This document shows, in pieces, positions 2,550 to 24,020 of a DNA stretch of 36,982 bases; the stretch's first letter is position 1; the number at the start of each line of letters is the position of its first letter. Source of the stretch: Cryobacterium sp. (lineage in GTDB: Bacteria; Actinomycetota; Actinomycetes; Actinomycetales; Microbacteriaceae); contig JAHBSW010000023.1 of assembly GCA_019638935.1 (NCBI GenBank), forward strand, positions 1-36,982, in the 5' to 3' direction. Made by a program: the position numbers and the translations under genes. The notes below the pieces were generated by a model. The model saw nothing but the letters and a program-made list of their open reading frames with translations. It was not told the origin of the DNA and did not search any database.

Positions 2550-3427
2550 CCAGCGCCGACAGCACACCGAGGGATGCCGCGCGCGACGCCGCGGTCACCA
2601 TCGCCAACGTCGACAAGACCTTCGCCACGCGCGAGGGCGAGGTGCACGCCCTGAAGGATGTGTCGCTCACCGTCGCGGCGGGGGAGTTCGTCTCGCTCAT
2701 CGGACCGTCGGGGTGCGGAAAGAGCACCCTCCTGCGGCTCGTGGCAGACCTCGACCAGCCCACCGCGGGCGCCGTCCGCGTGTTCGGCAAACCCGCTCGG
2801 CAGGCGCGAGTCGACCAGGACTACGGGATCGCCTTTCAGCAGTCCGGCCTGCTTCCCTGGCGCACGGTGCGGGGCAACATCGAACTGCCGCTGGAGCTTC
2901 ACCGCGACGGCCCGCACGGTGCCGACGCGGCGAGCCGCAGGTCCCGTGCCGCCGAGCTCATCGAGCTCGTCGGGCTCGGGGAGTTCGCCGAGAAGTACCC
3001 CGACCAGCTCTCGGGCGGCATGCAGCAGCGCGTCGCGATCGCACGAGCCATTGCCGAGAAGCCGAACCTGCTGCTCATGGACGAACCCTTCGGTGCGCTC
3101 GACGAGATGACCCGGGAGTACCTGCAGTCCGAGCTGCTGCGCATCGCCGCCGAGACCGGTGCGGCGGTCGTCTTCGTGACGCACTCGATTCCCGAGGCGG
3201 TGTACCTCTCCGACCGGGTCGTCGTCATGTCGCCTCGGCCGGGTCGCATCGAAGCGATCATCGACATGAAGCTCGGTGCCACCGAGCAGCGCACCGACGC
3301 GATCCGCGAAGACGTCGCCTTCTTCGAGATGGTCACGGCGGTTCGCGAATCGCTTCACCGCGGCAGCCCCCCGACCGGCTCGATCCCCGCACGAGACCTT
3401 GCGGCGCGCGAGGGGAGGTCTGCGTGA
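2546..3427 (+). CDS. ABC transporter ATP-binding protein (NrtD/SsuB/TauB type)
   Basis: A 293-residue nucleotide-binding subunit that energises the importer at the cytoplasmic face. All ATPase motifs are present: Walker A GPSGCGKST (residues 53-61), Q-loop around Q98-Q99, signature LSGGMQQR (155-162), Walker B LLLMDEPFGALDE (175-187) and the switch histidine in VTHS (H213). It belongs to the family that serves nitrate, sulfonate, taurine and pyrimidine-precursor importers. It begins and ends with 4-bp overlaps to the two permease genes. The last ~40 residues are a short Arg/Pro-rich tail after the catalytic domain. The substrate is not readable from this subunit. Confidence 0.94.
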   Translation: MTSADSTPRDAARDAAVTIANVDKTFATREGEVHALKDVSLTVAAGEFVSLIGPSGCGKSTLLRLVADLDQPTAGAVRVFGKPARQARVDQDYGIAFQQSGLLPWRTVRGNIELPLELHRDGPHGADAASRRSRAAELIELVGLGEFAEKYPDQLSGGMQQRVAIARAIAEKPNLLLMDEPFGALDEMTREYLQSELLRIAAETGAAVVFVTHSIPEAVYLSDRVVVMSPRPGRIEAIIDMKLGATEQRTDAIREDVAFFEMVTAVRESLHRGSPPTGSIPARDLAAREGRSA

Positions 3428-4305
3428 GCGAACCCTCGGCAGCGCTGAACTCCGGTGCGCGGAACGGCGGTGCGCCGAACTCCGGTGCGCGGAACGGCGG
3501 TGCGCCGAACTCCGGTGCGCGGAACGGCGGTGCGCCGAACTCCAGTGCGCTGAACAGTCGCACCACTCACGTGCTCGCCCCCATCGTGCTGGGCGTCGTC
3601 GTGGTGGCGATCTGGCAGGCGCTCGCGGGCAGCGGCCTCGTCGAGGCGTACCTGCTGCCGAGCCCCGCAGCGATCGTGGGCGAGATCGTCGCATTCGCGC
3701 CGAGCATGATCTCGGCGAGCGGCATCACCGGGCTCAACGCCCTCATCGGTCTCGTGCTCGGCACCGTGCTCGGCATCCTCACCGCGATCCTCGCCTCGGT
3801 GCTGCGAATCGTCGACGGGATGACGGCACCGGTCGTCGCGGCGCTCTCGGTCATCCCCATCGTCGCGCTCGCCCCCGTGCTCAACACCATGTTCGGAGCG
3901 GACTCGCAGTTCTCGAGGCAGGCCATCGCGGCGCTCGCCTCCTTCGTGCCGGTGTTCATCAACACGCTCCGCGGAGTGCGGCAGACACTGCCGGTGCACC
4001 GCGACCTCATGCGCGTGTACGCGGCCAGCCCGGGCGAGATCATGCGCACGGTGACGCTGCCGACGGCAACCCCGTTCGTGTTCACCGGCATCCGCCTCGC
4101 CTCGTCACTCGCGGTCATCTCCGCACTAGTCGCCGAGTACTTCGGCGGACCACGCGGCGGCCTCGGCAGCCTGATCGCGACCTCGGCGGCGTCGAGCGCC
4201 TATCCCCGGGCGTGGGGGTACGTCGTCGCCTCGATCGTTCTCGGACTCGCGTTCTACCTCGTCACACTCGGGCTCGAGAGGGCGGCGACACTGCGTCGAT
4301 CGTGA
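3424..4305 (+). CDS. ABC transporter permease (second), with pentapeptide-repeat N terminus
   Basis: A 293-residue permease. The GTG start (GTGA overlap with the ATPase stop) has a clear ribosome site GAGGGGAGG at 3410-3418. Residues ~5-45 form a low-complexity tail of repeated GARNG/GAPNS pentapeptides encoded by a 15/30-bp tandem repeat. Only after that does the first TM segment begin (about residue 48, HVLAPIVLGVVVVAIW). The rest is an ordinary binding-protein-dependent permease with an EAA-like loop near YAASPGEIMRTVTLPTATPFVF. Related permeases normally have a short N-terminal cytoplasmic segment, so the repeat tail is an add-on. The protein pairs with the permease at 1632 in the same importer. 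Confidence 0.9.
   Translation: MSEPSAALNSGARNGGAPNSGARNGGAPNSGARNGGAPNSSALNSRTTHVLAPIVLGVVVVAIWQALAGSGLVEAYLLPSPAAIVGEIVAFAPSMISASGITGLNALIGLVLGTVLGILTAILASVLRIVDGMTAPVVAALSVIPIVALAPVLNTMFGADSQFSRQAIAALASFVPVFINTLRGVRQTLPVHRDLMRVYAASPGEIMRTVTLPTATPFVFTGIRLASSLAVISALVAEYFGGPRGGLGSLIATSAASSAYPRAWGYVVASIVLGLAFYLVTLGLERAATLRRS
3454..3543 (+). repeat. In-gene 30-bp tandem repeat (three exact copies)
   Basis: Three identical 30-bp units start at 3454, 3484 and 3514. Each is itself two 15-bp half-units (GGTGCGCGGAACGGC and GGTGCGCCGAACTCC), so the basic period is 15 bp and encodes GA[R/P]N[G/S]. Diverged half-units flank the array (SAALNS before it, SALNS after it, to about 3558). The period keeps the permease frame open whatever the copy number. 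The array is a likely site of slippage and length variation between strains. Confidence 0.95.
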
Positions 4306-5633: not shown

Positions 5634-6962
5634 ATGACCTCTGGATCCTCTCGTCCTTCCGACCCCGCCACGGGCACTCTCACGCACGACCTCGACCGAG
5701 CCCACGTCTTCCACTCCTGGTCGGCGCAGGGTGCGCTGAATCCGTTCCTCGTCGCGGGGGCCGCGGGCACACGCGTGTGGGACTACGACGGCAAGGAGTA
5801 CCTCGACTTCTCGAGCCAGCTCGTCAACACGAACGTGGGGCACCAGCATCCGAAGGTCGTCGAGGCGATCAAGAAGCAGGCCGACACGCTTGCGACGATC
5901 GCGCCCGCCCACGGCAACCTCGCCCGAGGCGAAGCGGCCAAGCGCATCGTCGCGCGCGCCCCCGAGAGCTTCAACAAGGTCTTCTTCACCAACGGCGGCG
6001 CCGACGCCATCGAGAACGCGATCAGGATGGCACGCCTGCACACCGGCCGCGACAAGGTGTTCACGACCTACCGCTCGTACCACGGCAACACCGGCGCGGC
6101 GATCGTCGCCACGGGTGACTGGCGACGGATGCCCAACGAGTACGCGCGCGGACACGTGCACTTCTTCGGCCCCTTCCTCTACCGCAGCGAGTTCTGGGCC
6201 TCGACGCCGGAGGAGGAGTCGGAGCGCGCCCTGCGTCACGTGCGCCGCATGGTCGAGTCGGAGGGGCCGTCGACGGTGGCGGCTATCCTCATCGAGTCGA
6301 TCCCCGGAACCGCGGGCGTGCTCGTGCCGCCACCGGGTTACCTCGAGGGACTGCGCAGCCTGTGCGACGAGTACGGCATCATGCTCATCCTCGACGAGGT
6401 CATGGCCGGCTTCGGTCGCACCGGCAGGTGGTTCGCCTTCGACAACTTCGACGTCGTGCCCGACCTCGTGACCTTCGCCAAGGGCGTCAACTCGGGCTAC
6501 GTCCCCGCCGGCGGTGTCATCGTGAGCGACCACATCGCGGCCACCTTCGACGAGCGCGTCTTCCCCGGCGGGCTCACCTACTCGGGCCACCCGCTCGCGA
6601 TGGCCTCCATCGTCGGCGCGCTCGACGCGATGGAAGACGAGGGCATCGTCGACAACGCCCGCATGATCGGCGAGAGTCACCTCGCTCCGGGCCTCGCCGA
6701 ACTCGCGTCGAAGCACCCCATGATCGGCGAGGTGCGCGGCCTCGGCGTGTTCTGGGCGCTCGACCTCGTCGCCGACCCGGGCACGCGGGAGCCGGTCTCG
6801 GCATCCGTCATCGGGGCCCTCAAGGGCGAGCTTATGACGCGCGGCCTGCTGCCGTTCACGGCCGACAACCGCATCCACGTGGTGCCCCCGTGCATCGTCA
6901 CCCCCGACGAGGTCGCGCAGGCGCTCGAGATCTACGACGAGGCGTTCACCGCGGTCGCCTGA
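5634..6962 (+). CDS. Class III PLP-dependent aminotransferase (possible beta-alanine aminotransferase)
   Basis: A 442-residue fold-type I, class III (omega) aminotransferase. It shows the PLP phosphate-binding region FFTNGGADAIENAIRMAR, the cofactor-pairing aspartate D254 in LILDEVMAGFGRTG and the Schiff-base lysine K283 in FAKGVNSGYVPAGG. Length is normal for the family. In the reductive pyrimidine pathway the product beta-alanine is transaminated to malonate semialdehyde, and this gene lies directly after the dihydropyrimidinase/importer cluster. That role is an inference; other omega-amino acids or 4-aminobutyrate are possible. It is separated from the importer by a hairpin and appears to have its own leaderless promoter. 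Confidence 0.9.
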   Translation: MTSGSSRPSDPATGTLTHDLDRAHVFHSWSAQGALNPFLVAGAAGTRVWDYDGKEYLDFSSQLVNTNVGHQHPKVVEAIKKQADTLATIAPAHGNLARGEAAKRIVARAPESFNKVFFTNGGADAIENAIRMARLHTGRDKVFTTYRSYHGNTGAAIVATGDWRRMPNEYARGHVHFFGPFLYRSEFWASTPEEESERALRHVRRMVESEGPSTVAAILIESIPGTAGVLVPPPGYLEGLRSLCDEYGIMLILDEVMAGFGRTGRWFAFDNFDVVPDLVTFAKGVNSGYVPAGGVIVSDHIAATFDERVFPGGLTYSGHPLAMASIVGALDAMEDEGIVDNARMIGESHLAPGLAELASKHPMIGEVRGLGVFWALDLVADPGTREPVSASVIGALKGELMTRGLLPFTADNRIHVVPPCIVTPDEVAQALEIYDEAFTAVA

Positions 6963-7001: not shown

Positions 7002-7086
7002 ATGCGAAATGCAGGAGATTCTGAGAACACGCCCCGTTTTCTGCACCCCCAGCCCCGGGAACCGCGAATTCTCCTGCATTTCGCAC
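7002..7086. repeat. Family A palindromic element, intergenic copy
   Basis: The left arm GCGAAATGCAGGAGATTCT (7004-7022) is matched by the right arm AATTCTCCTGCATTTCGCAC (7067-7086), separated by about 44 bp. The core from AAATGCAGGAG (7007) to CTCCTGCATTT (7081) is 75 bp. The same arms occur in mutM (8924-9010) and smc (16874-16960), where the core is 77 bp. This copy lies between the aminotransferase and yceD, just upstream of the yceD promoter. Its middle is unlike the coding copies. Confidence 0.93.
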
Positions 7087-7131: not shown

Positions 7132-7683
7132 ATGCCTCACCCGAAGCCTTCCGCGTTCAACATCAACGTTCGCGACCTCATCCACAAGCCCGGGGACTAC
7201 CGCGACCGCGAGCTGGACGCCGTTGTCGCCGAGGACTGGGCGAACGCCGTCATCGGCGTGCGCGCGGGAACGCGCGTCGAATCCGACCTGCGCCTCGAAT
7301 CACTGCACGACGGGGTGCTCGTGAGCACGGACATCGAGGTGACGGCCACGGGGGAGTGCGTGCGCTGCCTCACGCCCGTCGAGCAGCCCGTTCAAGTCGA
7401 AATCCAGGAGCTTTTCGCGTACGATTCTGATGAAGCTCTGGAGTACGTGATTCACGGCGACCACGTGGACCTTGAACCCGTCATCAGAGATGCGGTAGTG
7501 CTGACACTGCCGTTCCAGCCCGTTTGTCAAGAAGACTGCCCCGGCCTGTGCCCGCAGTGCGGCGTGAGACTCCTCGACGAACCCGGTCACGAGCACGAAC
7601 AACCGGTCGACCCCCGGTGGGCCGCGCTCGCCGCGCTGGCAGAGACCGAGCTGGCAGAGAACACCGAAAGCCCCAAGCAGTAG
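7132..7683 (+). CDS. yceD: YceD/DUF177 family protein (23S rRNA accumulation)
   Basis: A 183-residue DUF177 protein. It has the conserved core TGECVRCLTPVEQPVQVEIQ and an acidic middle. The C-terminal cysteine cluster CQEDCPGLCPQCGVRLLDEPGH suits zinc binding. In bacteria and plastids this family promotes 23S rRNA accumulation and is almost always immediately upstream of rpmF, as here (60 bp). It starts at the ATG at 7132 with a -10-like TAAGCT 6 nt upstream, so the mRNA may be leaderless. The rpmF gene and then rnc and mutM follow on the same strand, probably as one operon. Confidence 0.9.
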   Translation: MPHPKPSAFNINVRDLIHKPGDYRDRELDAVVAEDWANAVIGVRAGTRVESDLRLESLHDGVLVSTDIEVTATGECVRCLTPVEQPVQVEIQELFAYDSDEALEYVIHGDHVDLEPVIRDAVVLTLPFQPVCQEDCPGLCPQCGVRLLDEPGHEHEQPVDPRWAALAALAETELAENTESPKQ

Positions 7684-8711: not shown

Positions 8712-9683
8712 GTGCCTGAACTCCCCGAGGTCGAGGTCGTTCGACGCGGAATCGAACCCGCCGTGAGCTTCGCGACTGTCACCGCAGTGGAGGTGCTCGA
8801 CGAGCGCTCGCTGCGCCGGCATCCTGGACCCTCCGAGGACTTCGTCGAGCGCATGACCGGTGCCGTCTTGGGCGCCCCGGCGCGCCGCGGCAAGTTCCTC
8901 TGGGTGCCCCTTCTTCCTCGCGTGCGCCAAATGCAGGAGATCCCGGATGCTTCCCGCGAGATTCCAGCACCTGACTCACCCACGCACGCAGAATCTCCTG
9001 CATTTCGCACAATGCCCGAGAGGCATGCTGAGGCTCTCGTCGTGCACCTGGGCATGAGCGGTCAGATTCTGCTGCGGGGACGCGGCACCGACGACCCGCT
9101 CACGCGCATCCGTCTCGATCTCGACTCGCCGCACGGGGCGCTGCGACTCAACTTCGTCGATCAGCGCATCTTCGGCTCGATGGCGATCGACTCGCTCGTG
9201 CCGGCCGCCGACCACGCGGGCGAACGCGTGCCGACATCCGTCGCCCATATCGCCCGCGACCCGCTCGATCCGCTCTTCGATGACGCGTGGTTCCTCGCGA
9301 GGCTCGCGACCAAGCGCACGGGCATCAAGCGCGCTCTGCTCGACCAGAACCTGATCAGCGGCGTCGGCAACATCTACGCCGACGAGGCGCTCTGGCACGC
9401 CCGACTGCACTACGACCAGCCCGCGAACACAGTCTCGCGCGCGAAGGCGAGAGAGCTGCTTGCCGCCGTTCGTGACGTGTTCGCGAAGGCGCTCATCGAG
9501 GGCGGCACGAGCTTCGACGCGCAGTACGTCAACGTCAACGGGGAGTCGGGCTACTTCTCGCACTCCCTCGTGGCGTACGGTCAGCACGACAAGCCGTGCC
9601 CGCGCTGCGGGGCGACGATGGCGCGCGAGCCGTGGATGAATCGCAACTCGCACTTCTGCCCACGGTGCCAGCGCCTGCGATAG
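8712..9683 (+). CDS. mutM: Formamidopyrimidine-DNA glycosylase (Fpg/MutM) with a palindromic-element insertion
   Basis: A 323-residue 8-oxoguanine DNA glycosylase/AP lyase, longer than the usual 270-290. The GTG start gives PELPEVEVVRRG, placing the catalytic proline right after Met and glutamate E3. Lysine K61 (ARRGKFLW), the HLGMSGQ strand, LISGVGNIYADE and the C-terminal zinc finger CPRCG...FCPRC are all intact, so the enzyme looks functional. Residues ~72-101 (RQMQEIPDA ... AESPAFRTM) are extra and are encoded by a family A palindromic repeat. They sit between the strand after K61 and the HLGMSG strand, where E. coli Fpg has only a short turn. A surface loop is therefore the expected outcome. 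The gene follows rnc by one base. Confidence 0.96.
   Translation: MPELPEVEVVRRGIEPAVSFATVTAVEVLDERSLRRHPGPSEDFVERMTGAVLGAPARRGKFLWVPLLPRVRQMQEIPDASREIPAPDSPTHAESPAFRTMPERHAEALVVHLGMSGQILLRGRGTDDPLTRIRLDLDSPHGALRLNFVDQRIFGSMAIDSLVPAADHAGERVPTSVAHIARDPLDPLFDDAWFLARLATKRTGIKRALLDQNLISGVGNIYADEALWHARLHYDQPANTVSRAKARELLAAVRDVFAKALIEGGTSFDAQYVNVNGESGYFSHSLVAYGQHDKPCPRCGATMAREPWMNRNSHFCPRCQRLR
8924..9010. repeat. Family A palindromic element inserted in frame in mutM
   Basis: Left arm AAATGCAGGAGATCC (8929-8943) and right arm AGAATCTCCTGCATTTCGCAC (8990-9010) bracket a 77-bp core. Counting five flanking bases each side gives 87 bp, or 29 codons, so the mutM frame is kept. The translation MQEIPDA ... 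AESPAFRT matches the pattern of the smc copy (MQETPDA ... AESPAFRT). The outer five bases on the left are diverged from the consensus. Confidence 0.93.
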
Positions 9684-9691
9684 GAGTGCTG

Positions 9692-9967
9692 CTACCTGCT
9701 CAGGTACGCATCCCTGCGGTGCGCGATCGAGACCACGTCGATGACGAGGCGGTGGTCGACGATCCGGTAGATGACGCGGTGTTCGTCCCGTCGGGCCGAG
9801 TAGAGGGATGCCAGCGGTTCACGCAGCGGCTTGCCGACACGACGCGGATTCTCGCGCAGCGCACCCGTGATCGACTTGAAAGCCGCCGCCGGTATTTTCT
9901 CGGGCAGGTCGACCTTGAGCGCTCGCCGCGCGGAGCGACTGAAGACGACCTCGTAGGCATCGCTCAC
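9692..9967 (-). CDS. relE: RelE/ParE-family toxin
   Basis: A 91-residue RelE-superfamily toxin. It reads SDAYEVVFSRSARRALKVDLP at the start and has the family's C-terminal core LYSARRDEHRVIYRIVDHRLVIDVVSIAHRRDAYLSR, here cited by position (about residues 55-91). RelE proteins cleave mRNA on ribosomes; ParE relatives act on gyrase, and sequence alone does not fully separate them. The GTG start at 9967 overlaps the stop of a 42-codon upstream frame by 4 bp, the usual antitoxin-toxin arrangement. It converges on mutM with an 8-bp gap. Confidence 0.85.
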   Translation of the reverse strand: MSDAYEVVFSRSARRALKVDLPEKIPAAAFKSITGALRENPRRVGKPLREPLASLYSARRDEHRVIYRIVDHRLVIDVVSIAHRRDAYLSR

Positions 9968-10092
9968 GCGGTGAGCCTCCCCCGAGCATGCAATGCCTCG
10001 CGTACGTCGTCGGCAGAAGAGACCTCGTCCTCCGCCAGATCGGCGAGTCCCTGTCGGATGAGTTTGATGCGAAGCGGTTTTGGCTTGCGCAT
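9964..10092 (-). CDS. Small putative antitoxin of the RelE pair
   Basis: A 42-residue frame from ATG (CAT at 10090-10092 on the + strand) to a TGA that overlaps the toxin GTG by 4 bp. It starts MRKPKPLRIKLIRQGLADLA and has an acidic second half (EDEVSSADDVREALHARGRL). No in-frame start exists further upstream because a TGA precedes the ATG by seven codons. It is shorter than usual RelB/Phd antitoxins and I do not recognise a DNA-binding fold. The assignment rests on coupling to the toxin gene. A truncated antitoxin is the alternative. Confidence 0.55.
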   Translation of the reverse strand: MRKPKPLRIKLIRQGLADLAEDEVSSADDVREALHARGRLTA

Positions 10093-10120
10093 GTGATGTT
10101 GATGAAGGCATCATTAGAGC
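10093..10120. promoter_or_regulatory. Shared 28-bp control region of two divergent toxin-antitoxin modules
   Basis: Only 28 bp separate the antitoxin starts at 10092 (-) and 10121 (+). The spacer contains an inverted repeat TGATG-AAGG-CATCA (10100-10113), a plausible operator for one or both antitoxins. I see no convincing canonical promoter. Confidence 0.45.
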
Positions 10121-10351
10121 ATGTCGATGATTCAAGTGCGGAACGTTCCCGAAGAGTTGCACCGACAGCTCAAAGTGCGCGCGGCCCGCGAAGGGATCAC
10201 CCTCTCCGAACTCGCATTGAACGAGTTGCGGCGAGCTGCGGCGGCGCCGAGTCCCGCTGAGTTGCGAGAGCGATTCGCCTCACGAGAGCTTCGGTCAAAC
10301 GGTGGGGAGTCGGCGGCAGAGTCGACTCGTGCCGAGCGGGATGCGCGGTGA
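10121..10351 (+). CDS. vapB: VapB/FitA-type ribbon-helix-helix antitoxin
   Basis: A 76-residue antitoxin. Residues 1-40 form a ribbon-helix-helix DNA-binding motif (IQVRNVPEELHRQLKVRAAREGITLSELALNELRR, given by position), with the FitA/VapB strand IQVRNVP. The Arg/Ser/Glu-rich C-terminal tail is the usual toxin-wrapping part. It starts at ATG 10121; a second ATG two codons on is possible. Its TGA overlaps the GTG of the PIN toxin by 4 bp. It should repress its own promoter with the toxin as co-repressor. Confidence 0.87.
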   Translation: MSMIQVRNVPEELHRQLKVRAAREGITLSELALNELRRAAAAPSPAELRERFASRELRSNGGESAAESTRAERDAR

Positions 10352-10743
10352 TCGTTCTCGACACCTCTGCGGCGATCGAGTTGACCCTCGCACTTCCCTT
10401 GTCGCGGAGAGTGCAGCAACGTCTTGAAGAAGACGAGTGGCAGATTGCAGCGCCGCAGCTGCTTTCGGTTGAGGTGCTGCAGGTGCTCCGGCGGAGGGTT
10501 GCGGCGGGGCTGACCACTCTCGCTCAGGCCGAAGAGGCTCGTGAGCTGCTGCGAGACCTGAACATCCGCTTCTTCGACCACGACACTCTCGTTGATCGCG
10601 TGTGGCGCCTTCGCGACAACCTGACCGCATACGACGCGTGCTTTGTCGTGCTTGCTGAGCTTCTTGACAGCGAGCTGGTGACGACGGATGTGCGCCTCGC
10701 GAGGGCGCCGGGGCACGACGCTCGAGTAGTCCTCGTGCAATAA
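10348..10743 (+). CDS. vapC: VapC PIN-domain ribonuclease toxin
   Basis: A 131-residue PIN-domain toxin. The acidic metal-binding residues are placed as in VapC: D5 (MIVLDTSA), E42 (SVEVLQ), D96 (TAYDACFV) and D113 (VTTDVRLA). Members of this family cleave tRNA or rRNA and are held inactive by the partner antitoxin. The GTG start overlaps the vapB stop, giving coupled translation. It ends facing a convergent membrane-protein gene with a hairpin between them. Confidence 0.92.
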   Translation: MIVLDTSAAIELTLALPLSRRVQQRLEEDEWQIAAPQLLSVEVLQVLRRRVAAGLTTLAQAEEARELLRDLNIRFFDHDTLVDRVWRLRDNLTAYDACFVVLAELLDSELVTTDVRLARAPGHDARVVLVQ

Positions 10744-10797
10744 GACTGATGTTGTCTTCGAGCTGGAGAGCCGTCGAGGATCTGTGAGAAAGTCCGC

Positions 10798-10819
10798 GGC
10801 TGACTAATCGGAGTCAGCC
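10798..10819. terminator. Bidirectional hairpin between vapC and the convergent membrane-protein gene
   Basis: GGCTGACT (10798-10805) pairs with AGTCAGCC (10812-10819) around a 6-nt loop. A further CCGC/GCGG pairing (10794-10797 with 10823-10826) follows a small bulge. The stop codon of the minus-strand gene lies within the stem. Confidence 0.6.
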
Positions 10820-11146
10820 TCCGCGGGTCAGGATGAAGATCGCAACACATCCGGCTGCCAGGCCGAGATAGCCAAGGAAGACTCCCGCATACGCCAGGCC
10901 CCAACCCTGCTCGTTCGTGCGACGGATCTGTGAAAGTGCGATGTGGCCGAGTACGACCGCCGCGATGGACACGAAGAACGCTAGGACGAAGGCCGCGATT
11001 GCAAGCGTGTTCATTTTCTCCGAGAGGACTATCTCTCCGTCCCTTATCTTTTGCCCATGTGCTCTAAGCGGAACGATCAAGCCCGAGAGCGCGAAGAGGA
11101 GCAGGAAGAACAGCACGGGCACAAGAGCGGTCAGATTTGAGATCAT
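10814..11146 (-). CDS. Small membrane protein (DUF4190-like)
   Basis: A 110-residue protein with three predicted TM helices (about residues 5-27, 48-72 and 84-107). The last two, with the loop HIALSQIRRTNEQGWGLAYAGVFLGYLGL, resemble DUF4190 proteins, which are common in actinobacteria and of unknown function. The ATG at 11146 is chosen because it lies just downstream of the dyad promoter region. An internal ATG at codon 45 would leave only the two DUF4190 helices. It is transcribed divergently from the HTH gene at 11231 and shares its operator region. Confidence 0.75.
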   Translation of the reverse strand: MISNLTALVPVLFFLLLFALSGLIVPLRAHGQKIRDGEIVLSEKMNTLAIAAFVLAFFVSIAAVVLGHIALSQIRRTNEQGWGLAYAGVFLGYLGLAAGCVAIFILTRGG

Positions 11147-11182
11147 AGCGATTCGCTTTCTAGAAGCAACGAGGGTTGAGCG

Positions 11183-11222
11183 CAGCACAGGATACTGTGT
11201 CAAAGCACAGTATCCTGTGCTG
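11183..11222. promoter_or_regulatory. 17-bp perfect inverted repeat: paired operators with divergent -10 boxes
   Basis: CAGCACAGGATACTGTG (11183-11199) and its exact reverse complement (11206-11222) flank a 6-bp spacer. Each arm also contains its own dyad, CACAG-N4-CTGTG (11186-11199 and 11206-11219), with centres 20 bp apart, about two helical turns. TATCCT, a possible -10, occurs on the + strand at 11211-11216 and symmetrically on the - strand at 11194-11189. Binding by the adjacent HTH protein would cover both promoters. Confidence 0.75.
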
Positions 11223-11230
11223 TCTCGTCG

Positions 11231-11509
11231 TTGCAACTTCGATTTGCTGGAGGTGTGCCGGAACCTCCCCAACCTGATCTTGCGCGCCTCCGGTACATCA
11301 TCAGCAGGGAACGCATGCGATCCGGCCTGACTATCGAGCAGTTGTCTGAATTGTCTGGAGTAAGTCGTCAGACGATTCTCAATATCGGCTCCGGTAAGCA
11401 CTTCGGCGATCTGAAGACGTGGCTCAAGCTCTCGCGTGCACTCGACGTCAGCCTCGATCAGCTGCTTGCCGAAGTGTGGAGCGGGGATAGCGGTTCGGCG
11501 AGCAAGTAG
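11231..11509 (+). CDS. XRE-family helix-turn-helix regulator
   Basis: A protein of up to 92 residues containing one Cro/CI-type HTH (LRYIISRERMRSG as helix 1; LTIEQLSELSGVSRQTILNI as the HTH core), followed by SGKHFGDLKTWLKLSRALDVSLDQLL. The start is uncertain. TTG 11231 gives the longest form; GTG 11255 is in frame but its GGAGG is only 1 nt away; ATG 11315 would cut into helix 1. It lies next to a double dyad operator and divergent from a small membrane protein, so autoregulation and control of that neighbour are likely. Its TAG stop doubles as the start of the next gene's -10 box. Confidence 0.82.
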   Translation: MQLRFAGGVPEPPQPDLARLRYIISRERMRSGLTIEQLSELSGVSRQTILNIGSGKHFGDLKTWLKLSRALDVSLDQLLAEVWSGDSGSASK

Positions 11510-11512
11510 TGT
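11507..11512 (+). promoter_or_regulatory. Putative -10 box for acyl-CoA dehydrogenase, overlapping the upstream stop codon
   Basis: TAGTGT begins with the TAG stop of the HTH gene and ends 7 nt before the ATG at 11520. No ribosome site is visible. Confidence 0.5.
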
Positions 11513-11519
11513 CGATTCC

Positions 11520-12695
11520 ATGACCGACGTGACCGCACAGAATGCCGAAGAGCTACTCGGACTCGAGGCTCTCATCACGCCCGAGGAGCGCGAGTGGCAG
11601 CTCAAGGCCCGCGCCTTCGCGACCGAGCGCATCCTGCCCACGATCGACGGCGATTTCGAGGCGAAGGAGTTCCGCAAGAGCCTCGTGCCCGAGCTGGGTG
11701 CGCTCGGCATGCTCGGCATGCACCTCGAGGGCTACGATTGCGCGGGCGCCGGCGCGGTGAGCTACGGACTCGTCTGCCACGAGCTCGAGGCGGGCGACTC
11801 GTCGTGGCGCACCTTCGTGTCGGTGCAGGGCTCGCTCGCGATGACCGCGATTCACCGCTTCGGCACGGAGGAGCAGAAGCAGCGCTGGCTTCCGGGCATG
11901 GCGACGGGGGAGTTGATCGGATGCTTCGCCCTCACCGAGCCGACGGGCGGCAGCGATCCGGGCGGCATGAAGACGATCGCGAGGCGTGACGGCGACGAGT
12001 GGGTGATCAGCGGTCAGAAGCGCTGGATCGGCCTCGCCTCGATCGCCGATGTCGCGATCGTCTGGGCGCGCACCGATGACGGTGTGCGAGGGTTCGTCGT
12101 GCCGACGAAGACGGTCGGGTTCCGCCCGCTCGACATCGTCAACAAGATGTCGCTGCGCGCATCCATTCAGTGCGACCTCTACTTCGACGACCTGCGGGTG
12201 CCGGCCGACGCGATCCTGCCGCTCGCCGAGGGGCTGTCGGCACCGTTCTCCTGCCTCGATGAGGCCCGCTTCGGCATCGTCTGGGGGGCGCTCGGCGCCG
12301 CCCGCGCGTGCCTTGACGCCGCCGTCGAGCGGTCGCGCACGCGCGAGGTGTTCGGTGCGCCGATCGGCTCCCGTCAGCTCGTGCAGCACAACCTCGCCGA
12401 GGCCTTCGTCGAGTACGAGAAGGGGATGCTGCTCGCCCTGCACCTCGGTCGGCTCAAGGAGAAGGGCCCCGTTCCGCCGGAGCAGATCTCGATCGGCAAG
12501 CTCAACAGCGTGCGCGAGGCGATCGCGATCGCGCACGCTGCTCGCGGCATCCTCGGCGGTGACGGGGTGACGACGGACTTTCCCGTCATGCGCCACCTCG
12601 CCAACCTCGAGTCGGTGCGCACCTATGAGGGCACGGACGAGATCCACACGCTGGTGGTCGGCCGCGCCCTCACGGGTATCGCCGCGTTCCGCTAA
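11520..12695 (+). CDS. Acyl-CoA dehydrogenase, glutaryl-CoA dehydrogenase-like
   Basis: A 391-residue FAD-dependent acyl-CoA dehydrogenase. The three-domain order is visible: an N-terminal helical domain, FALTEPTGGSDPGGM for flavin/substrate contact in the middle domain, and a C-terminal helical domain with the catalytic base E370 in TYEGTDEIH. The arginine-containing SLRAS motif and overall pattern recall glutaryl-CoA dehydrogenase, but decarboxylating activity cannot be proven here. The ATG at 11520 is used because the in-frame extension upstream lies inside the HTH gene. It converges on the acetyltransferase with stop codons overlapping by 4 bp. Confidence 0.9.
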   Translation: MTDVTAQNAEELLGLEALITPEEREWQLKARAFATERILPTIDGDFEAKEFRKSLVPELGALGMLGMHLEGYDCAGAGAVSYGLVCHELEAGDSSWRTFVSVQGSLAMTAIHRFGTEEQKQRWLPGMATGELIGCFALTEPTGGSDPGGMKTIARRDGDEWVISGQKRWIGLASIADVAIVWARTDDGVRGFVVPTKTVGFRPLDIVNKMSLRASIQCDLYFDDLRVPADAILPLAEGLSAPFSCLDEARFGIVWGALGAARACLDAAVERSRTREVFGAPIGSRQLVQHNLAEAFVEYEKGMLLALHLGRLKEKGPVPPEQISIGKLNSVREAIAIAHAARGILGGDGVTTDFPVMRHLANLESVRTYEGTDEIHTLVVGRALTGIAAFR

Positions 12696-13774
12696 GCGTC
12701 CGTCGCGGCGGCCTTCTTCCAGCCGCCGCCGTAGCCCACGGCGACGAAGCCGATCGCCTCGTTGACATCGAGCATGGGACGGTTCTCCTCCGCGTTGAAG
12801 GTGGTCACCGCGGGGTGACCCGGATGCGTCTCGGCCAGGAACTGCAGGTTCGCGAGCTTGAGCAGCATGCCGAGGCGATGCCCGCGGTGCTCCTTGAGCA
12901 CGAGGGTGTCGTTCTGCTCGACGGGTCGCTCGAGCTCCGGCGGCACCGACAGCTCGGTGAACCCGGCGATGTCGCCCGTCGGCTCGTGCACGGCGATCAC
13001 AGTGAGCACGGCCCGCGGACTCTCGCTTCGGCGCTCCTCGTAGTCGCGCACGCGCTCGTCGGTCCAGTTCTCCTCGTTGACGTCGAGCCCCGCTGCCGGG
13101 GCGTCGGTGCTCATTCGCTGCCGCAGCAGGCCGAGTCCGGCGATCCACTTCTCGGGTGCCTTTCCCTCCCAGCGCTCGAGCACGTAGTCCTCGGCGTGAG
13201 CGCGAGCATCCCCGAGCATCGCCTCGAGCTCGGCCTCGTCGAGCGGGAGCTCGAGTCGGCTCATCCGCTCCACCTGCTCGAGCCGGAATCCGCGCGCCAG
13301 CACGAACCGGGTCTCGGGGTTGTGCAGCGGAACCGAGCCGAAGCCCGTCGGCGACGCGAGCTGCTCGCCCGAGTCGGCCTCCTTGTGCATGATGTAGCAC
13401 TGCTGCACGCTGCGGCCGTCGGCGTTCGTCATCTCCACGAGCCTCTCGTAGAGGGCCGACCCGATGCCGCGTCCGCGAAAGGCGGGCAGCACCTCGACGG
13501 TGAGCCAGACATCCGTCGCCCCCTCCTCGACAGGCGCCTCGTAGATGGCGCGCGCCACGATGCGACCGTCGACGCGGGCGACGATGCAGGTCTGGGGCTG
13601 GTAGGTGTCGTGATAGTAGGGCAGCAGTTCGGCGGGCTCGTACGCGAGGTCGCGGTTGCCGACGGTGTCGGCCTCGATCTCGTTGCGCACGTGCACCATC
13701 TCGACGAAGTCGGAGGCGTCGGAATCGGTGATTGACGCCGGAATGGTGAGAGTTTCGATCGTGAAACTGGTCAT
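12692..13774 (-). CDS. Tandem GNAT-domain N-acetyltransferase
   Basis: A 360-residue protein made of two GNAT folds. The first has the acetyl-CoA-binding loop RGRGIG (residues 100-105) within FRGRGIGSALYERLVEM. The second, degenerate one has KEHRGHRLGMLLKLANLQFL near residue 295. Two-domain actinobacterial GNATs of this kind include mycothiol-synthase-like and antibiotic-modifying enzymes; the substrate here is unknown. Translation probably uses AAGGAAC just upstream of the ATG. The gene converges on the acyl-CoA dehydrogenase (4-bp overlap of stops) and diverges from smc. Confidence 0.87.
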   Translation of the reverse strand: MTSFTIETLTIPASITDSDASDFVEMVHVRNEIEADTVGNRDLAYEPAELLPYYHDTYQPQTCIVARVDGRIVARAIYEAPVEEGATDVWLTVEVLPAFRGRGIGSALYERLVEMTNADGRSVQQCYIMHKEADSGEQLASPTGFGSVPLHNPETRFVLARGFRLEQVERMSRLELPLDEAELEAMLGDARAHAEDYVLERWEGKAPEKWIAGLGLLRQRMSTDAPAAGLDVNEENWTDERVRDYEERRSESPRAVLTVIAVHEPTGDIAGFTELSVPPELERPVEQNDTLVLKEHRGHRLGMLLKLANLQFLAETHPGHPAVTTFNAEENRPMLDVNEAIGFVAVGYGGGWKKAAATDA

Positions 13775-13994
13775 GGGTGTTCCTTGGTTGGTAGTGCGGT
13801 GATTCAGGATGCGGGAGCCGGTCGGGCCGGCGACGGAATTGCACAGGCGTCAGAATGTGCAAAGCCGATCAGACTACAACCGCCGTGGCGTCGATGATCA
13901 GAGTGTGATCGAACCGTTGTCTATCGCGCTTGAGTGGGGCGGCCGTCCGGTACCGTAGTTCCGTGCAGCGGCGGAGACGGAGAAGGGCGGGCTC
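13775..13994. promoter_or_regulatory. Divergent intergenic region between the acetyltransferase and smc
   Basis: This 220-bp region holds an inverted repeat TTGCACA (13839-13845) / TGTGCAA (13856-13862) with a 10-nt spacer. On the minus strand, TAGTCT (13876-13871) could be a -10 for the acetyltransferase. On the plus strand, TTGAGT (13930-13935) and TACCGT (13951-13956) could serve smc with a 15-bp spacing. GGAGAAGG before 13995 is the smc ribosome site. No gene is seen here. Confidence 0.4.
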
Positions 13995-16900
13995 GTGTAC
14001 CTCAAGAGCCTGACCCTCAAGGGCTTCAAGTCGTTCGCCCAGCCCACGACCTTCGCCTTCGAGCCGGGTGTGACGTGCGTCGTCGGCCCCAACGGCTCGG
14101 GCAAGTCGAACGTCGTCGACGCCCTCGCCTGGGTCATGGGCGAGCAGGGTGCGAAGACCCTGCGTGGCGGCAAGATGGAGGATGTCATCTTCGCCGGCAC
14201 CGCGACGAAGGGGCCGCTCGGCCGCGCCGAGGTGCTGCTCACGATCGATAACTCCGACGGGGCGCTGCCGATCGAGTACACCGAGGTCACGATCAGCCGC
14301 ACCCTGTTCCGCAACGGCGGCAGCGAGTACGCGATCAACGGCGAGACCTGCCGGCTGCTCGACGTGCAGGAGCTGCTCAGCGACTCCGGTCTCGGCCGCG
14401 AGATGCACGTCATCGTCGGGCAGGGACAGCTCGATGCCGTGCTGCACGCGAGCCCCGAGGACCGTCGCGGCTTCATCGAGGAGGCCGCGGGCATCCTGAA
14501 GCACCGTCGCCGCAAGGAGAAGACGCTGCGCAAGCTCGAGGCGATGCAGGCGAACCTCACACGCCTGAGCGACCTCGCGGGGGAGATCCGTCGCCAGCTC
14601 AAACCGCTCGGTCAGCAGGCGCAGATCGCCCGGGAGGCGCAGTCGATCGCCGCGATCGTTCGGGATGCTCGTGCCCGCCTGCTCGCGGACGAGCTCGTCA
14701 CCCTGCGCACCGCGCTCGCCGACTTCGCGAAGAGCGAGTCGGAGCGCAAGACCGAGCGCCTCGTGCTGCAGGAGCAGCTCGACCAGAACAAGCGTCGCGA
14801 GCTGCAGATCGAGCAGGAGCAGCAGGGCGACGCCGTCGACCTCGCCCGCCGCACCGCCTTCGGGCTCGAGCAGGTTCAGGAGCGCATGCGCTCGCTCTAC
14901 ACGCTCGCCAACCAGCGCATCGCCCTGCTCGGCGATCAGGCCGAGGCGACCGAGTACGTCGTCGGTGTCTCCGAGCAGCAGGTCGCCGAGGCGCGCTCGG
15001 AGGCGCTGCGACTCGAGTCGACCGTCACCGAGACCGAGGCGGCGTGGCAGGACGCCCAGACCGCGACCGAGCGCGCCCGCGCCAACCTCGCGGCGATCGA
15101 CGAGGAGCTGGCGCTGCAGGCATCCCTCGTCTCCCAGCACGAACTCGACCTGTCGCGTCTCGCGGGTGCCGTCGAGTCGGCCGCCTCGACGTTGGCCGCT
15201 GTGCGTGGCGAGGTGCTGCGCCAGCAGAACGCGCTCGACGGGGCGAAGCAGCGCGGCGCCGAGGCGCGCCAGCAGCTCGAGCTGGTCGAAGCCGAGCAGG
15301 GCGGTGACGAGATCGAGACCGGACTCGACGATGCCTACGAAGCAGCCCAGGCCGACGTCTCGGCGGCCGAGGCCGCGATCGAGTCCCTGCGCGAGCAGCT
15401 GCACGAGCGCGAGCGCGAGCGCGACTCCCTTGCCGCGCGCACGAACGCCCTGTCGCGCGCCCTCGAGATCAAGGACGGCGCGAAGGAGCTCGTCGCCGCG
15501 AGCCTCAAGGGCGTGCGCGGCATCGTCGCCGATCACGTCACCGTCAGCCAGGGCTTCGAGGCTGCGATCGCGGCGGTGCTGGGATCGCTCGCCGAGGGCG
15601 TGCTCGCCGACAGCCGTGACGCCGCGATCGATGCCGTCGAACACGCCAAATCGAAGGACTTCGGTCGTGTCGAGGTGGTCATCGGATCGAGCAGAGCGGA
15701 TGCTGTCGACTGGCCGACGCTCGACGGCGTAGTCCCTGCCGCGTCGGTCGTGAAGGCGCCCGACGGTGTGCTCGGAATCCTCAGCCATGTCGCGATCGCC
15801 GACGACCTCGCCGCGGCGCGTGCGGCCCTCGCGCCGCTCACCGCGGCAGGACTCGGTGGCGTCACGGTCGTGACGAAGGCCGGCGACGTGCTCACAGAGT
15901 ACGTGCTGCGGGGCGGCTCGGGAGGCAAGCAGGGTCGCATCGAGCTGCTCGCCGAGCGTGATGCCGCCGCCGTGCGACACACCGAGGTCGAGGCGCTCAT
16001 CGTGACGGCGCGTGCCGAGCTCGTCGAGCGACGGTCGGTGCTCGAGAAGGCGCGCACGACGTCCGCGCAGGCGCTCACCGCCCTGCGCGACTTCGACGCC
16101 CAGCTCGCCGCGCGCACCGAGAAGCTCAATCGTGCCCGCGTGCGCGTCGAGGCCGCCACGGCCGAGGCCGAGCGGCTCGAACGCGGCCTCACGCTCGCGA
16201 CGACCCAGGTCGACGAGGCGGTGGCCGCCCACGCCGCGGCGGTCGCGGCCCACGAGAACGCCGAGGCCGCACCGAAGCCCATCCTCGACGCGAGCGAGCG
16301 TGACGCCCTCGCGAAAGAGGTCGACGAGAGCCGCGAGCGCGAGCTCGAAGCCCGCCTTGCGCTGGAGACGGCGCGTGAGCGGGTGCGCGCCGAGCAGCAG
16401 CGCGCCGAAGCACTCGCCAGAACGCTCGAGAGCGAGCGGGCCGCTGCCGAGGAGTCGGCGCGGCGGGCCGTCATCCGTCGCCATCGTCTGGAGCGTGCTC
16501 AGCGCATCGTGAACTCCCTGCCCGCAGCGCTCGATGCCGTGGATCGCTCGGTCTCCGAGGCGCGGGTGCAGCTCGCCGCGCGCGAGGCCGAGCGCAGCGA
16601 GCAGAACGAGCAGCTCGCGCGTCTGCGTCACGACGAGGCCGACCTGCGGGCGCGACTCATGACGGTGAGCGAGAGCGTTCAGGGCATCGAGATGCAGATC
16701 TACGAGAAGAAGCTGCATGCGACGGCCCTCGTGGAGCGCGCGAACGAAGATCTCGGTCTCGTCGAGGATGTGCTCATCGCCGAGTACGGCCCGCACGTGC
16801 TCGTGCCCGCCGAGCCCGCGGATGCTGTCCCTGACGAGCCCGTGTCCACTGATGCCGCACCCGCTCCGCCGATGTCCGAAATGCAGGAGACTCCGGATGC

Positions 16901-17672
16901 CGATGTCGACACCGCGGGGCAGCACGAGGCAGACGGTGCAGAATCTCCTGCATTTCGCACTGGGCAGGCAGCAGAGGCCGTGGCGGACGCGACCGCGGGC
17001 GTGCCGTTCGTGCGCCGCGAGCAGGAGTCGCGCCTCGCCACGTTCGAGCGCAAGCTCGCACAGCTCGGCCGCGTCAACCCGCTCGCGCTCGAGGAGTTCG
17101 CGGCACTCGAGCAGCGCCACAAGTTCCTCACCGACCAGCTCACCGACCTCAGCAACACGCGCAAGGACCTGCTGACGATCATCGACGACCTCGACGACCG
17201 CATGAAGGACATCTTCGCGTCGGCGTTCGAGGACACGAAGTCGGCGTTCAACGACGTGTTCCCGGTGCTGTTCCCGGGCGGGAGCGGAAGCATCCGTCTC
17301 ACCGATCCCGACGACATGCTTACGACGGGCATCGAGGTGACGGTCAAGCCCGCGGGCAAGAAGATCGAGCGGCTATCGCTGCTGTCGGGTGGCGAGCGGT
17401 CGCTCGCGGCCGTCGCGCTCCTGGTCGCGATCTTCAAGGCACGGCCGAGCCCGTTCTACATTCTCGACGAGGTCGAGGCGGCGCTCGACGACGCCAACCT
17501 CGGGCGCCTGCTCTCCATCTTCGAGGAGCTGCGCGCGAACTCGCAGCTCATCATCATCACCCACCAGAAGCGCACGATGGAGATCGCGGACGCCCTCTAC
17601 GGCGTCTCGATGCGCGCCGACGGCATCAGCGCGGTCGTGGGTCAGCGGGTCGCGCGCGCGGTGGAGCGCTAA
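13995..17672 (+). CDS. smc: Chromosome segregation ATPase SMC, carrying a palindromic-element insertion
   Basis: A 1225-residue SMC protein that compacts and segregates the chromosome with ScpA/ScpB. It has the N-terminal head MYLKSLTLKGFKSFA with Walker A GPNGSGKS (31-38), long coiled coils, a hinge at roughly residues 495-640 (GVRGIVADHV...), the conserved return VNPLALEEFAALEQRHKFL, signature LSGGER (1130-1135) and Walker B ILDEVE (D1158/E1159). The GTG start matches the family N terminus and follows GGAGAAGG. Residues 961-989 (SEMQETPDA ... AESPAFRT) come from a family A repeat. They lie in the variable linker between YGPHVLVPAEPAD and PFVRREQESRLATFERKLAQLG. Two hairpins follow the stop. 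Confidence 0.97.
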   Translation: MYLKSLTLKGFKSFAQPTTFAFEPGVTCVVGPNGSGKSNVVDALAWVMGEQGAKTLRGGKMEDVIFAGTATKGPLGRAEVLLTIDNSDGALPIEYTEVTISRTLFRNGGSEYAINGETCRLLDVQELLSDSGLGREMHVIVGQGQLDAVLHASPEDRRGFIEEAAGILKHRRRKEKTLRKLEAMQANLTRLSDLAGEIRRQLKPLGQQAQIAREAQSIAAIVRDARARLLADELVTLRTALADFAKSESERKTERLVLQEQLDQNKRRELQIEQEQQGDAVDLARRTAFGLEQVQERMRSLYTLANQRIALLGDQAEATEYVVGVSEQQVAEARSEALRLESTVTETEAAWQDAQTATERARANLAAIDEELALQASLVSQHELDLSRLAGAVESAASTLAAVRGEVLRQQNALDGAKQRGAEARQQLELVEAEQGGDEIETGLDDAYEAAQADVSAAEAAIESLREQLHERERERDSLAARTNALSRALEIKDGAKELVAASLKGVRGIVADHVTVSQGFEAAIAAVLGSLAEGVLADSRDAAIDAVEHAKSKDFGRVEVVIGSSRADAVDWPTLDGVVPAASVVKAPDGVLGILSHVAIADDLAAARAALAPLTAAGLGGVTVVTKAGDVLTEYVLRGGSGGKQGRIELLAERDAAAVRHTEVEALIVTARAELVERRSVLEKARTTSAQALTALRDFDAQLAARTEKLNRARVRVEAATAEAERLERGLTLATTQVDEAVAAHAAAVAAHENAEAAPKPILDASERDALAKEVDESRERELEARLALETARERVRAEQQRAEALARTLESERAAAEESARRAVIRRHRLERAQRIVNSLPAALDAVDRSVSEARVQLAAREAERSEQNEQLARLRHDEADLRARLMTVSESVQGIEMQIYEKKLHATALVERANEDLGLVEDVLIAEYGPHVLVPAEPADAVPDEPVSTDAAPAPPMSEMQETPDADVDTAGQHEADGAESPAFRTGQAAEAVADATAGVPFVRREQESRLATFERKLAQLGRVNPLALEEFAALEQRHKFLTDQLTDLSNTRKDLLTIIDDLDDRMKDIFASAFEDTKSAFNDVFPVLFPGGSGSIRLTDPDDMLTTGIEVTVKPAGKKIERLSLLSGGERSLAAVALLVAIFKARPSPFYILDEVEAALDDANLGRLLSIFEELRANSQLIIITHQKRTMEIADALYGVSMRADGISAVVGQRVARAVER
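16874..16960. repeat. Family A palindromic element inserted in frame in smc
   Basis: Left arm CGAAATGCAGGAGACTCC (16877-16894) and right arm GCAGAATCTCCTGCATTTCGCAC's core CTCCTGCATTT (16945-16955) bracket exactly 77 bp, as in mutM. With five flanking bases each side it is 87 bp, 29 codons. It enters the host frame in the same phase as in mutM and shares CCGGATGC after the left arm with that copy. Confidence 0.93.
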
Positions 17673-23817: not shown

Positions 23818-24020
23818 GTCGATCTCGAGATGCGGGCTGCGCCCGCTACTCGATCACCGATAGAACCGCTGGTCGAGTAGCGACGTAGTGGCGTATCGAG
23901 ACCCAGCACGCCCAGGAGTGCCGCCGCAGGTTCGATCTCGATACCGGCGCTGGTGCGCCTATTCGATCACCGGTCTTTCGCTGGTCGAGTGCCGCCGCAG
24001 GCGGTGTATCGAGACCTGCA
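23818..24020. repeat. REP-like repeat cluster (family B), four alternating units
   Basis: Units at about 23818-23860 (diverged, GATCTCGAGATGCGGGC ... CTCGATCACC), 23868-23908 (GCTGGTCGAGTAGCG ... CGTATCGAGACC), 23933-23973 (diverged, GATCTCGATACCGG ... TTCGATCACC) and 23980-24019 (GCTGGTCGAGTGCCG ... GTATCGAGACC) alternate in orientation. Together they fill the 234-bp gap between the lipoprotein and the oxidoreductase genes; nothing else is seen there except the downstream promoter. Confidence 0.87.

Follow-up and report, generated by a model that had tools for sequence, protein, structure and literature searches.

How does a short inverted repeat come to lie, in one and the same reading frame, inside two different genes, mutM and smc, and once more between genes? 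The question is raised by a stretch of 36,982 nucleotides (nt) from Cryobacterium sp. (assembly GCA_019638935.1, contig JAHBSW010000023.1, positions 1 to 36,982), called here the window. We propose, with a probability of about 0.6, that copies of the repeat are the scattered sites of a two-part system of repeat and nuclease, which would work like the REPIN repeats with their RAYT transposases, with a different enzyme in the place of the transposase. The copies found in the window and their surroundings are as follows.

7003..7085, no strand assigned: intergenic copy, arms TGCGAAATGCAGGAGA and TCTCCTGCATTTCGCA; its neighbours are an aminotransferase-like gene (5634-6962) and a yceD-like gene (7132-7683), both named from reading the translations
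8712..9683, + strand: mutM, formamidopyrimidine-DNA glycosylase, host gene (PF01149, E 4.6e-26; PF06831, E 1.8e-23)
8926..9008, + strand: in-gene copy in mutM, arms at 8926-8940 and 8994-9008, read QMQEIPDASREIPAPDSPTHAESPAFR
13995..17672, + strand: smc, chromosome segregation ATPase, host gene (PF02463, E 1e-70; PF06470, E 6.6e-15)
16876..16958, + strand: in-gene copy in smc, in the linker before RVNPLALEEF, arms at 16876-16890 and 16944-16958, read EMQETPDADVDTAGQHEADGAESPAFR

With at most one mismatch allowed, the arm AAATGCAGGAGA has six matches in the window, where dinucleotide shuffles expect 0.12, and the six make up three inverted pairs (7007-7081 between genes, 8929-9005 in mutM and 16879-16955 in smc). 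Both genic copies have the inverted arms AAATGCAGGAGA…TCTCCTGCATTT, span 77 nt and are read in one frame, (E/Q)MQE…ESPAFR; apart from the arms and a common CCGGATGC, their cores are unrelated. A first-pass annotation, made from the letters alone, had claimed that the element enters both genes at the same codon phase and yields a common peptide pattern. Both claims are borne out, since the first A of the arm is codon position 2 in either gene and both copies read (E/Q)MQE[I/T]PDA…AESPAFRT; its gene names also agree with Pfam (Fapy_DNA_glyco and H2TH for mutM, SMC_N and SMC_hinge for smc). In MutM, 157 amino acids (aa) cover 117 profile positions of the N-terminal domain. The length of 87 bp, or 29 codons, given for the element hinges on the chosen ends: from AAATGCAGGA to TCCTGCATTT the intergenic, mutM and smc copies measure 75, 77 and 77 nt, and with the longer arms GCGAAATGCAGGAGA they measure 81, 83 and 83 nt, so that what stands of this claim is the excess of 2 nt in the genic pairs over the intergenic one. 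Genes were called with a custom script, which placed the start of mutM wrongly.

The repeat is dispersed well beyond the window. Its own genome (2.41 Mb) holds 14 pairs, allowing up to three mismatches to the 15-mer and selecting pairs by spacing. Their 28 arms show 18 mismatches in 420 positions, 16 of the 28 being perfect 15-mers, and all 22 matches of a 12-mer fall in pairs, while the cores have nothing visibly in common. There are also 67 further single matches with two or three mismatches, compared to 26 for a reversed-pattern control, and some decayed arms may be among them. Reading frames and neighbouring genes place five copies inside genes (mutM, smc, purH, a GNAT/mycothiol-synthase-like gene and a class-V aminotransferase gene) and nine were judged non-genic. 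The genic copies measure 77, 77, 77, 77 and 76 nt, the non-genic ones 75 (six), 76 (two) and 77 nt (one); the length of 77 versus all others separates the two groups with P = 0.023.

In the family Microbacteriaceae, 33 of 398 genomes, from 16 of 85 genera, have paired arms of the window type, and a reversed-pattern control gives zero in every row. When other arm letters are allowed, a looser pattern finds matches in 59 of 239 genomes, from 35 of 85 genera; the control has one match in 11 of the 239, so that genomes with a single match may be chance. The exact arm of the own genome, GCGAAATGCAGGAGA, has no match in 148 other genomes; this is a dialect effect, because the shorter paired pattern did match other genomes. 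The dialects change on both arms together (AAATTCAGGA/TCCTGAATTT, AAACGCAGGA/TCCTGCGTTT, AAACTCAGGA/TCCTGAGTTT), with some mixed pairs, and in most copies complementarity extends outside the arms, up to about 7 bases.

The unit that emerges is an inverted pair of arms of some 10-16 nt round a free core, mostly 75-77 or 87-89 nt overall. Among 215 catalogued copies, 165 are 73-79 nt long and 47 are 86-89 nt; lengths of 67, 68 and 83 nt occur once each, and 80-82 nt does not occur. The catalogue was cut from 237 entries by dropping those with fewer than 2 of 3 arm positions complementary or with less than 300 nt of flank, and eight loci (L055, L060, L088, L089, L096, L103, L107 and L120) were dropped as unrelated by sequence. 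When 400 kb of genome G055 were scanned without the requirement for an exact pair, all 17 pairs lay at 76-77 nt; the same type of scan over 400 kb of G232 gave 22 pairs, 5 at 76-77 nt, 14 at 88-89 nt and one each at 69, 99 and 146 nt. The roughly 11-nt steps in length suggest that one face of the helix presents both half-sites for reading. Perfect half-sites were paired in 31 of 32 cases in the 400 kb of G055 and in 37 of 41 in those of G232, where two of the four unpaired ones face each other at 99 nt. The cores of 16 orthologous site pairs have an identity of 0.44, as compared to 0.40 for random pairs.

The commonest recurrent neighbour of the sites is a protein of about 285-340 aa with a DUF559/REase_MTES_1575 nuclease domain of the Vsr-like PD-(D/E)xK type (PF04480, E 8.8e-12; PF18741, E 7.8e-8, with the bit score below the cut-off; PDB 3hrl, E 2.8e-4) and a probable winged helix of the AbiEi type. 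The residues D, E, H and D of this predicted nuclease domain are invariant in 17 of 17 aligned proteins. All 9 called nuclease genes, eight of them different, adjoin a site, compared with 257 of the 2052 remaining genes in these loci; the comparison is internal to loci most of which had been fetched for their sites. Among 19 unique nuclease loci found by tblastn, 15 have paired sites on both sides of the gene, and at five of these (G232, G044, G028, G283 and L244) one site overlaps its 3' end. The nuclease at glyS in G055 has one pair and one half-site, the loci L149 and L233 have a site on one side, and L234, which is cut by the locus end, has none within 400 nt. Seven spaced site pairs had been noted beforehand, and four of them, 1.02-1.15 kb apart (in G055, G172, G082 and G282), had the nuclease between them; a flanked nuclease lies in the cluster regions of G028 and G283 as well.

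Nuclease and repeat also agree in type. Nucleases at the dapD-gltA locus, together with the one at L087 elsewhere, go with the TGC dialect of the arms, and those adjoining glyS with the TTC, CTC or, in G079, CGC dialect; a tree of 17 nuclease proteins splits TGC from TTC/CTC/CGC with support of 100/100, matching the dialects. Copies of the TTC/CTC dialects cluster round their own nuclease gene, at a median distance of 56 kb in G232, 23 kb for the CTC copies of G055 and 25 kb in G028 (with 8 of 10 sites listed), whereas uniform placement expects medians of 720-911 kb. In G055 the two dialects occupy fully separate chromosome regions (C1 347,939-490,089 versus the rest), and in C1 of G044 they do so mostly. 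A macrodomain reading of this arrangement, with TGC nearer the origin and TTC/CTC nearer the terminus, was considered and given up as the first choice: in the one genome examined, G055, the dif-like site at 577 kb falls outside the cluster at 348-490 kb, so that a matS-like centring on dif fails, and the clusters centre on the nuclease. The dif-like site itself, TGATAATGCACATTATGTCAGA at G055 C1 577,130 (L301 17,130), is the only match of its pattern in 400 kb and lies near the antipode of dnaA.

According to the proposed reading, a multimer of the nuclease would grip both arms on one face of the DNA, from which the steps of about 11 nt would follow, and nicking or cutting by the nuclease may drive the making of new copies, which in the glyS type would arise near the nuclease's own gene. 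Most surviving copies would lie between genes. A gene could harbour one where a loop or linker can accommodate about 27-30 hydrophilic residues, and then nearly always in the frame (E/Q)(M/I/T)QE…SP(A/E)F and with a length that leaves the reading frame intact; the window's copies in mutM and smc would have survived in this way.

Comparison with relatives bears on whether the genic copies are additions to their hosts. The smc region was located and read in 38 other genomes, and mutM as well where the contig extended far enough; set against empty relatives, the mutM and smc copies are insertions in frame. Where the mutM loop has a matched site, in the six genomes G000, G282, G003, G029, G082 and G254, its median length is 36.5 aa, with 42 aa in the window's own mutM; in 21 genomes that lack a match the median is 8 aa, three long loops (G002, 39 aa; G192, 31 aa; G055, 25 aa) being among them. 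By reading, the loop of G002 (L194 7183-7271) holds an inverted pair of other arms, AAATGAAGGC (GGACCCAAATGAAGGCAC), 89 nt long, perhaps a further dialect. In smc, 12 of the 34 linkers measured, the window's included, have a matched site, and the median length is 83 aa with it and 50.5 aa without (n = 22). For the intergenic gap before yceD, 14 other genomes were aligned; G192, of another genus, has the site and 13 have none. Since the mutM, smc and yceD-gap sites are found in other genera, all three sites of the window recur elsewhere, and other gene pairs also hold sites at the same places across genera. Within the genus of the window the smc site is present in G000, G001, G002 and G006 and lacking in G003, G004, G005 and G007; such patchiness within genera speaks for gain and loss. 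The copies in purH, the GNAT/mshD-like gene and the class-V aminotransferase gene are in frame, too.

The first-pass annotation had further suggested that only one frame of the element is tolerated in proteins, as if it were shaped, or filtered, for life inside genes. The tabulation of the relatives upholds the one-frame rule: in 30 gene-by-genome rows, picked by eye among 36 candidates, a choice on which the phase counts lean, 27 left arms follow the MQE frame and 29 right arms the P(A/E)F frame. The overall length is 2 mod 3 in 27 of 31 genic and in 47 of 184 non-genic copies (P = 8e-11). Counted by gene family, 7 of 8 are wholly or mostly in the MQE frame (P = 0.0026 for the named frame, 0.008 for any frame). 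The rows, one per gene and genome, comprise smc (9), mutM (6), tlyA (6) and a YeiH-like gene (4), the remainder being the GNAT/mshD-like gene, the aminotransferase, purH and the nuclease gene in two genomes. Six candidates (L048, L064, L068, L112, L143 and L233) were omitted as wrong-frame gene calls, as judged by eye; purH, missed by the caller, was entered by hand, which gives 31 copies, and the second smc copy of G036 was left uncounted, which gives 30 rows. This smc has a duplicated in-frame stretch with two 89-nt copies (L222 1200-1519). The smc linkers of G001, G029, G048 and G065, found with the looser pattern, stand outside the 30 rows, and in G001, G048 and G065 the phase of the left arm is the same as in the rule. 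The rule is broken on the left arm in the smc of G444 (KCRR, in a copy of 75 nt whose right arm keeps PAF) and in the nuclease genes of both G232 and G044 (GNSG, 88 nt), and on the right arm in the GNAT/mshD-like gene (LLHF, 76 nt).

The idea of a repeat shaped for genes, on the other hand, does not hold, as 184 of the 215 catalogued copies lie outside genes and the MQE frame is no more open in non-genic copies than the other two (0.72 vs 0.66 and 0.77). With 66, 72 and 77% of the non-genic copies open in phases 0, 1 and 2, openness is similar in all phases, and stop codons therefore do not account for the frame bias, which looks like a protein-level filter. Outside genes, 155 copies are distributed over convergent (59), same-direction (74) and divergent (22) gaps, whereas 538 baseline gaps of 60-600 nt comprise 91, 291 and 156, respectively; convergent gaps are thus enriched (P = 7e-8), with site-bearing gaps left in the baseline and tandem copies counted singly.

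Several observations weigh against the proposed system. That the nuclease binds the arms, cuts and moves copies is something that we only infer from these analyses, and the choice of loci mentioned above limits how the link between nuclease and sites can be read. A winged-helix match in the protein is weak (AbiEi_4, E 0.012 and 0.23, below the cut-off), and the TTC-clade protein matches MTES_1575 only, with E 7.5e-4. Three of the seven pairs noted beforehand, 1.67-2.05 kb apart, are without a nuclease, and the TGC copies are not clustered round their nuclease gene (G055, P = 0.85; G444, P = 0.27). The part of the window's own genome that was read, 910 kb of 2.41 Mb (38%), with the gltA locus outside it, has no close nuclease; its glyS locus has none, and the one weak match in the part read (E 4.9e-7) is without a Pfam match or a site. 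Among 164 copies there is no target-site duplication, the sole excess of flanking direct repeats lying directly at the arms and being explained by self-complementary flanks such as TCGA/TCGA. Paired copies have intact arms and random cores, which is not something that the passive decay of a mobile repeat predicts. Finally, in one genus the tlyA arms sit on native coding sequence, which insertion of a whole unit would not give. In nine genomes of this genus, exact arms 77 nt apart are found in five, one arm is changed in G291, and G244, G395 and G366 have equal length and core with other arm letters; all nine, including G366, which has no matched site, are longer there than other genera by about 5 aa, far under a whole unit. 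The YeiH-like copies are probably of the same kind, as the Cons_hypoth698 domain spans the site and the core peptide is near-identical in four genomes.

The last of these points invite a reading in which the sites are useful to the host: a chromosome-organizing or regulatory protein would bind the half-sites and loop the 65-90 nt or so between them, host selection would keep the arms, and the nuclease-like protein would be that binding protein or a bystander. Nearly intact arms round random cores (in the own genome, in G055 and G232, and at the orthologous sites), tlyA sites on native sequence, the helical spacing steps and the separate regions of the two G055 dialects would all fit. However, copy number ranges from 0 to 58 among relatives and from 0 to 14 within the own genus, and in G055 the CTC region has the nuclease gene at its centre and leaves out the dif-like site. 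In addition, the intergenic gaps occupied in G055 and G232 coincide no more than by chance (overlap 2 of 6, P = 0.23), and the surplus of single matches in the own genome may include decayed lone arms. We consider a host site rather unlikely.

An unlikely variant of the nuclease reading, and one we put forward tentatively, is that the enzyme moves no segment at all and instead writes or maintains two arms at a fixed helical distance on existing DNA, in a homing-like manner. The unit would then be a spacing with two half-sites, mutated arms would be restored or purged, and the cores would consequently be arbitrary, native tlyA coding sequence included.

It is improbable that the repeat is an ordinary miniature inverted-repeat transposable element (MITE), i.e. 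a non-autonomous relic of a cut-and-paste insertion sequence with the arms as its ends. Inverted ends, patchy copy number, the extra length in mutM and in most occupied gaps, and subfamilies with common cores in some genomes are what one would expect of a MITE, but the target-site duplications are missing, orphan perfect arms are few, and the nuclease gene is bounded by complete paired sites and not by single ends. A Y1 transposase is missing as well from the positive genomes tested, other transposases not having been searched for.

Least of all do we expect a transcribed RNA hairpin (a terminator or processing site) that falls by chance inside some genes, since, despite the excess of convergent gaps and outer flanks that pair copy by copy (in G420, 70 pairings vs about 55 in shuffles, P = 0.001), this pairing exceeds within-genome shuffles at P < 0.05 in only one of seven genomes, the window has no Rfam match at gathering scores, the core sequence is free and the length yet changes in steps of about 11 nt, and a terminator would harm smc, mutM and tlyA.

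Other repeats were seen along the way. The window has another dispersed repeat, a 38-nt inverted pair, 97% complementary, at 463-500 and 23979-24016 (GGTCTCGATACACCGCCTGCGGCGGCACTC; also at 506-584 and 23916-23948), and, at 3427-3570, a 15-bp tandem array of seven copies in register just before a called gene (3571-4305). In relatives, a second inverted-arm repeat has arms around AAACGCTGCAGCG and a 42-nt spacer (L212 2680-2759 and 9402-9469; L211 9252-9321).

Among known systems we compared the two-part system proposed here with the REPINs of Pseudomonas, which, according to the portion of PMC3116915 available to us, consist of two conserved 16-mers in inverted orientation, 71 or 110 bp apart, on either side of a spacer that is conserved less well. 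The window-type repeat is likewise an inverted doublet of conserved arms of about 16 nt with a variable spacer. In the REP/RAYT case the transposase gene is flanked by repeats and the enzymes are repeat-specific (PMC3116915 and PMC3733652, both in part); here the flanked gene, at the 15 of 19 loci given above, is that of a DUF559-type nuclease, by which the copies would be mobilized. The available part of PMC3733652 further places REPs mostly between convergent or same-direction genes, downstream of genes, and reports copies in replication and repair genes, among them recB, at about the same site in two Xanthomonas. The differences are the lack of GTAG or CGTC in the window-type arms, the spacing steps of about 11 nt and the host family Microbacteriaceae. 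A Y1 tyrosine transposase (RAYT, PF01797) was found in none of the 27 positive genomes tested, and the one PF01797 match among 56 genomes is in G018, itself without a match to the repeat. An IS200/RAYT partner and assignment to the REPIN class were therefore rejected, as the defining Y1 enzyme is absent from the positive genomes searched.

The Rickettsia palindromic elements are palindromic, lie in frame in protein genes and encode a conserved peptide, as stated in the part of the review PMC10969869 that we could consult. In-frame insertion in protein genes is seen here as well, in mutM and smc; in contrast, only the arms are conserved in our repeat, core identity being near random, and the same part of the review does not mention an enzyme gene flanked by the elements. 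The partner protein has the nuclease domain of the DUF559/REase_MTES_1575 (Vsr-like) proteins (PF04480, PF18741). In open-licence PMC text we found no paper that ties this family to a dispersed repeat, and among the matches listed there for Microbacteriaceae palindromic repeats or MITEs, or for the arm letters, none was related by title.

Intact arms round random cores make it testable whether the host or the nuclease keeps the repeats alive, and the in-frame insertions at the same smc and mutM sites form a natural series. To our knowledge, REPIN-type partnerships of repeat and enzyme are all tied to one enzyme class, the tyrosine transposases. If the proposed reading is true, a role would be suggested for a family labelled as being of "unknown function", and the Microbacteriaceae would harbour a parallel system built on a Vsr-like nuclease, which would mean that repeat-enzyme partnerships arose more than once.

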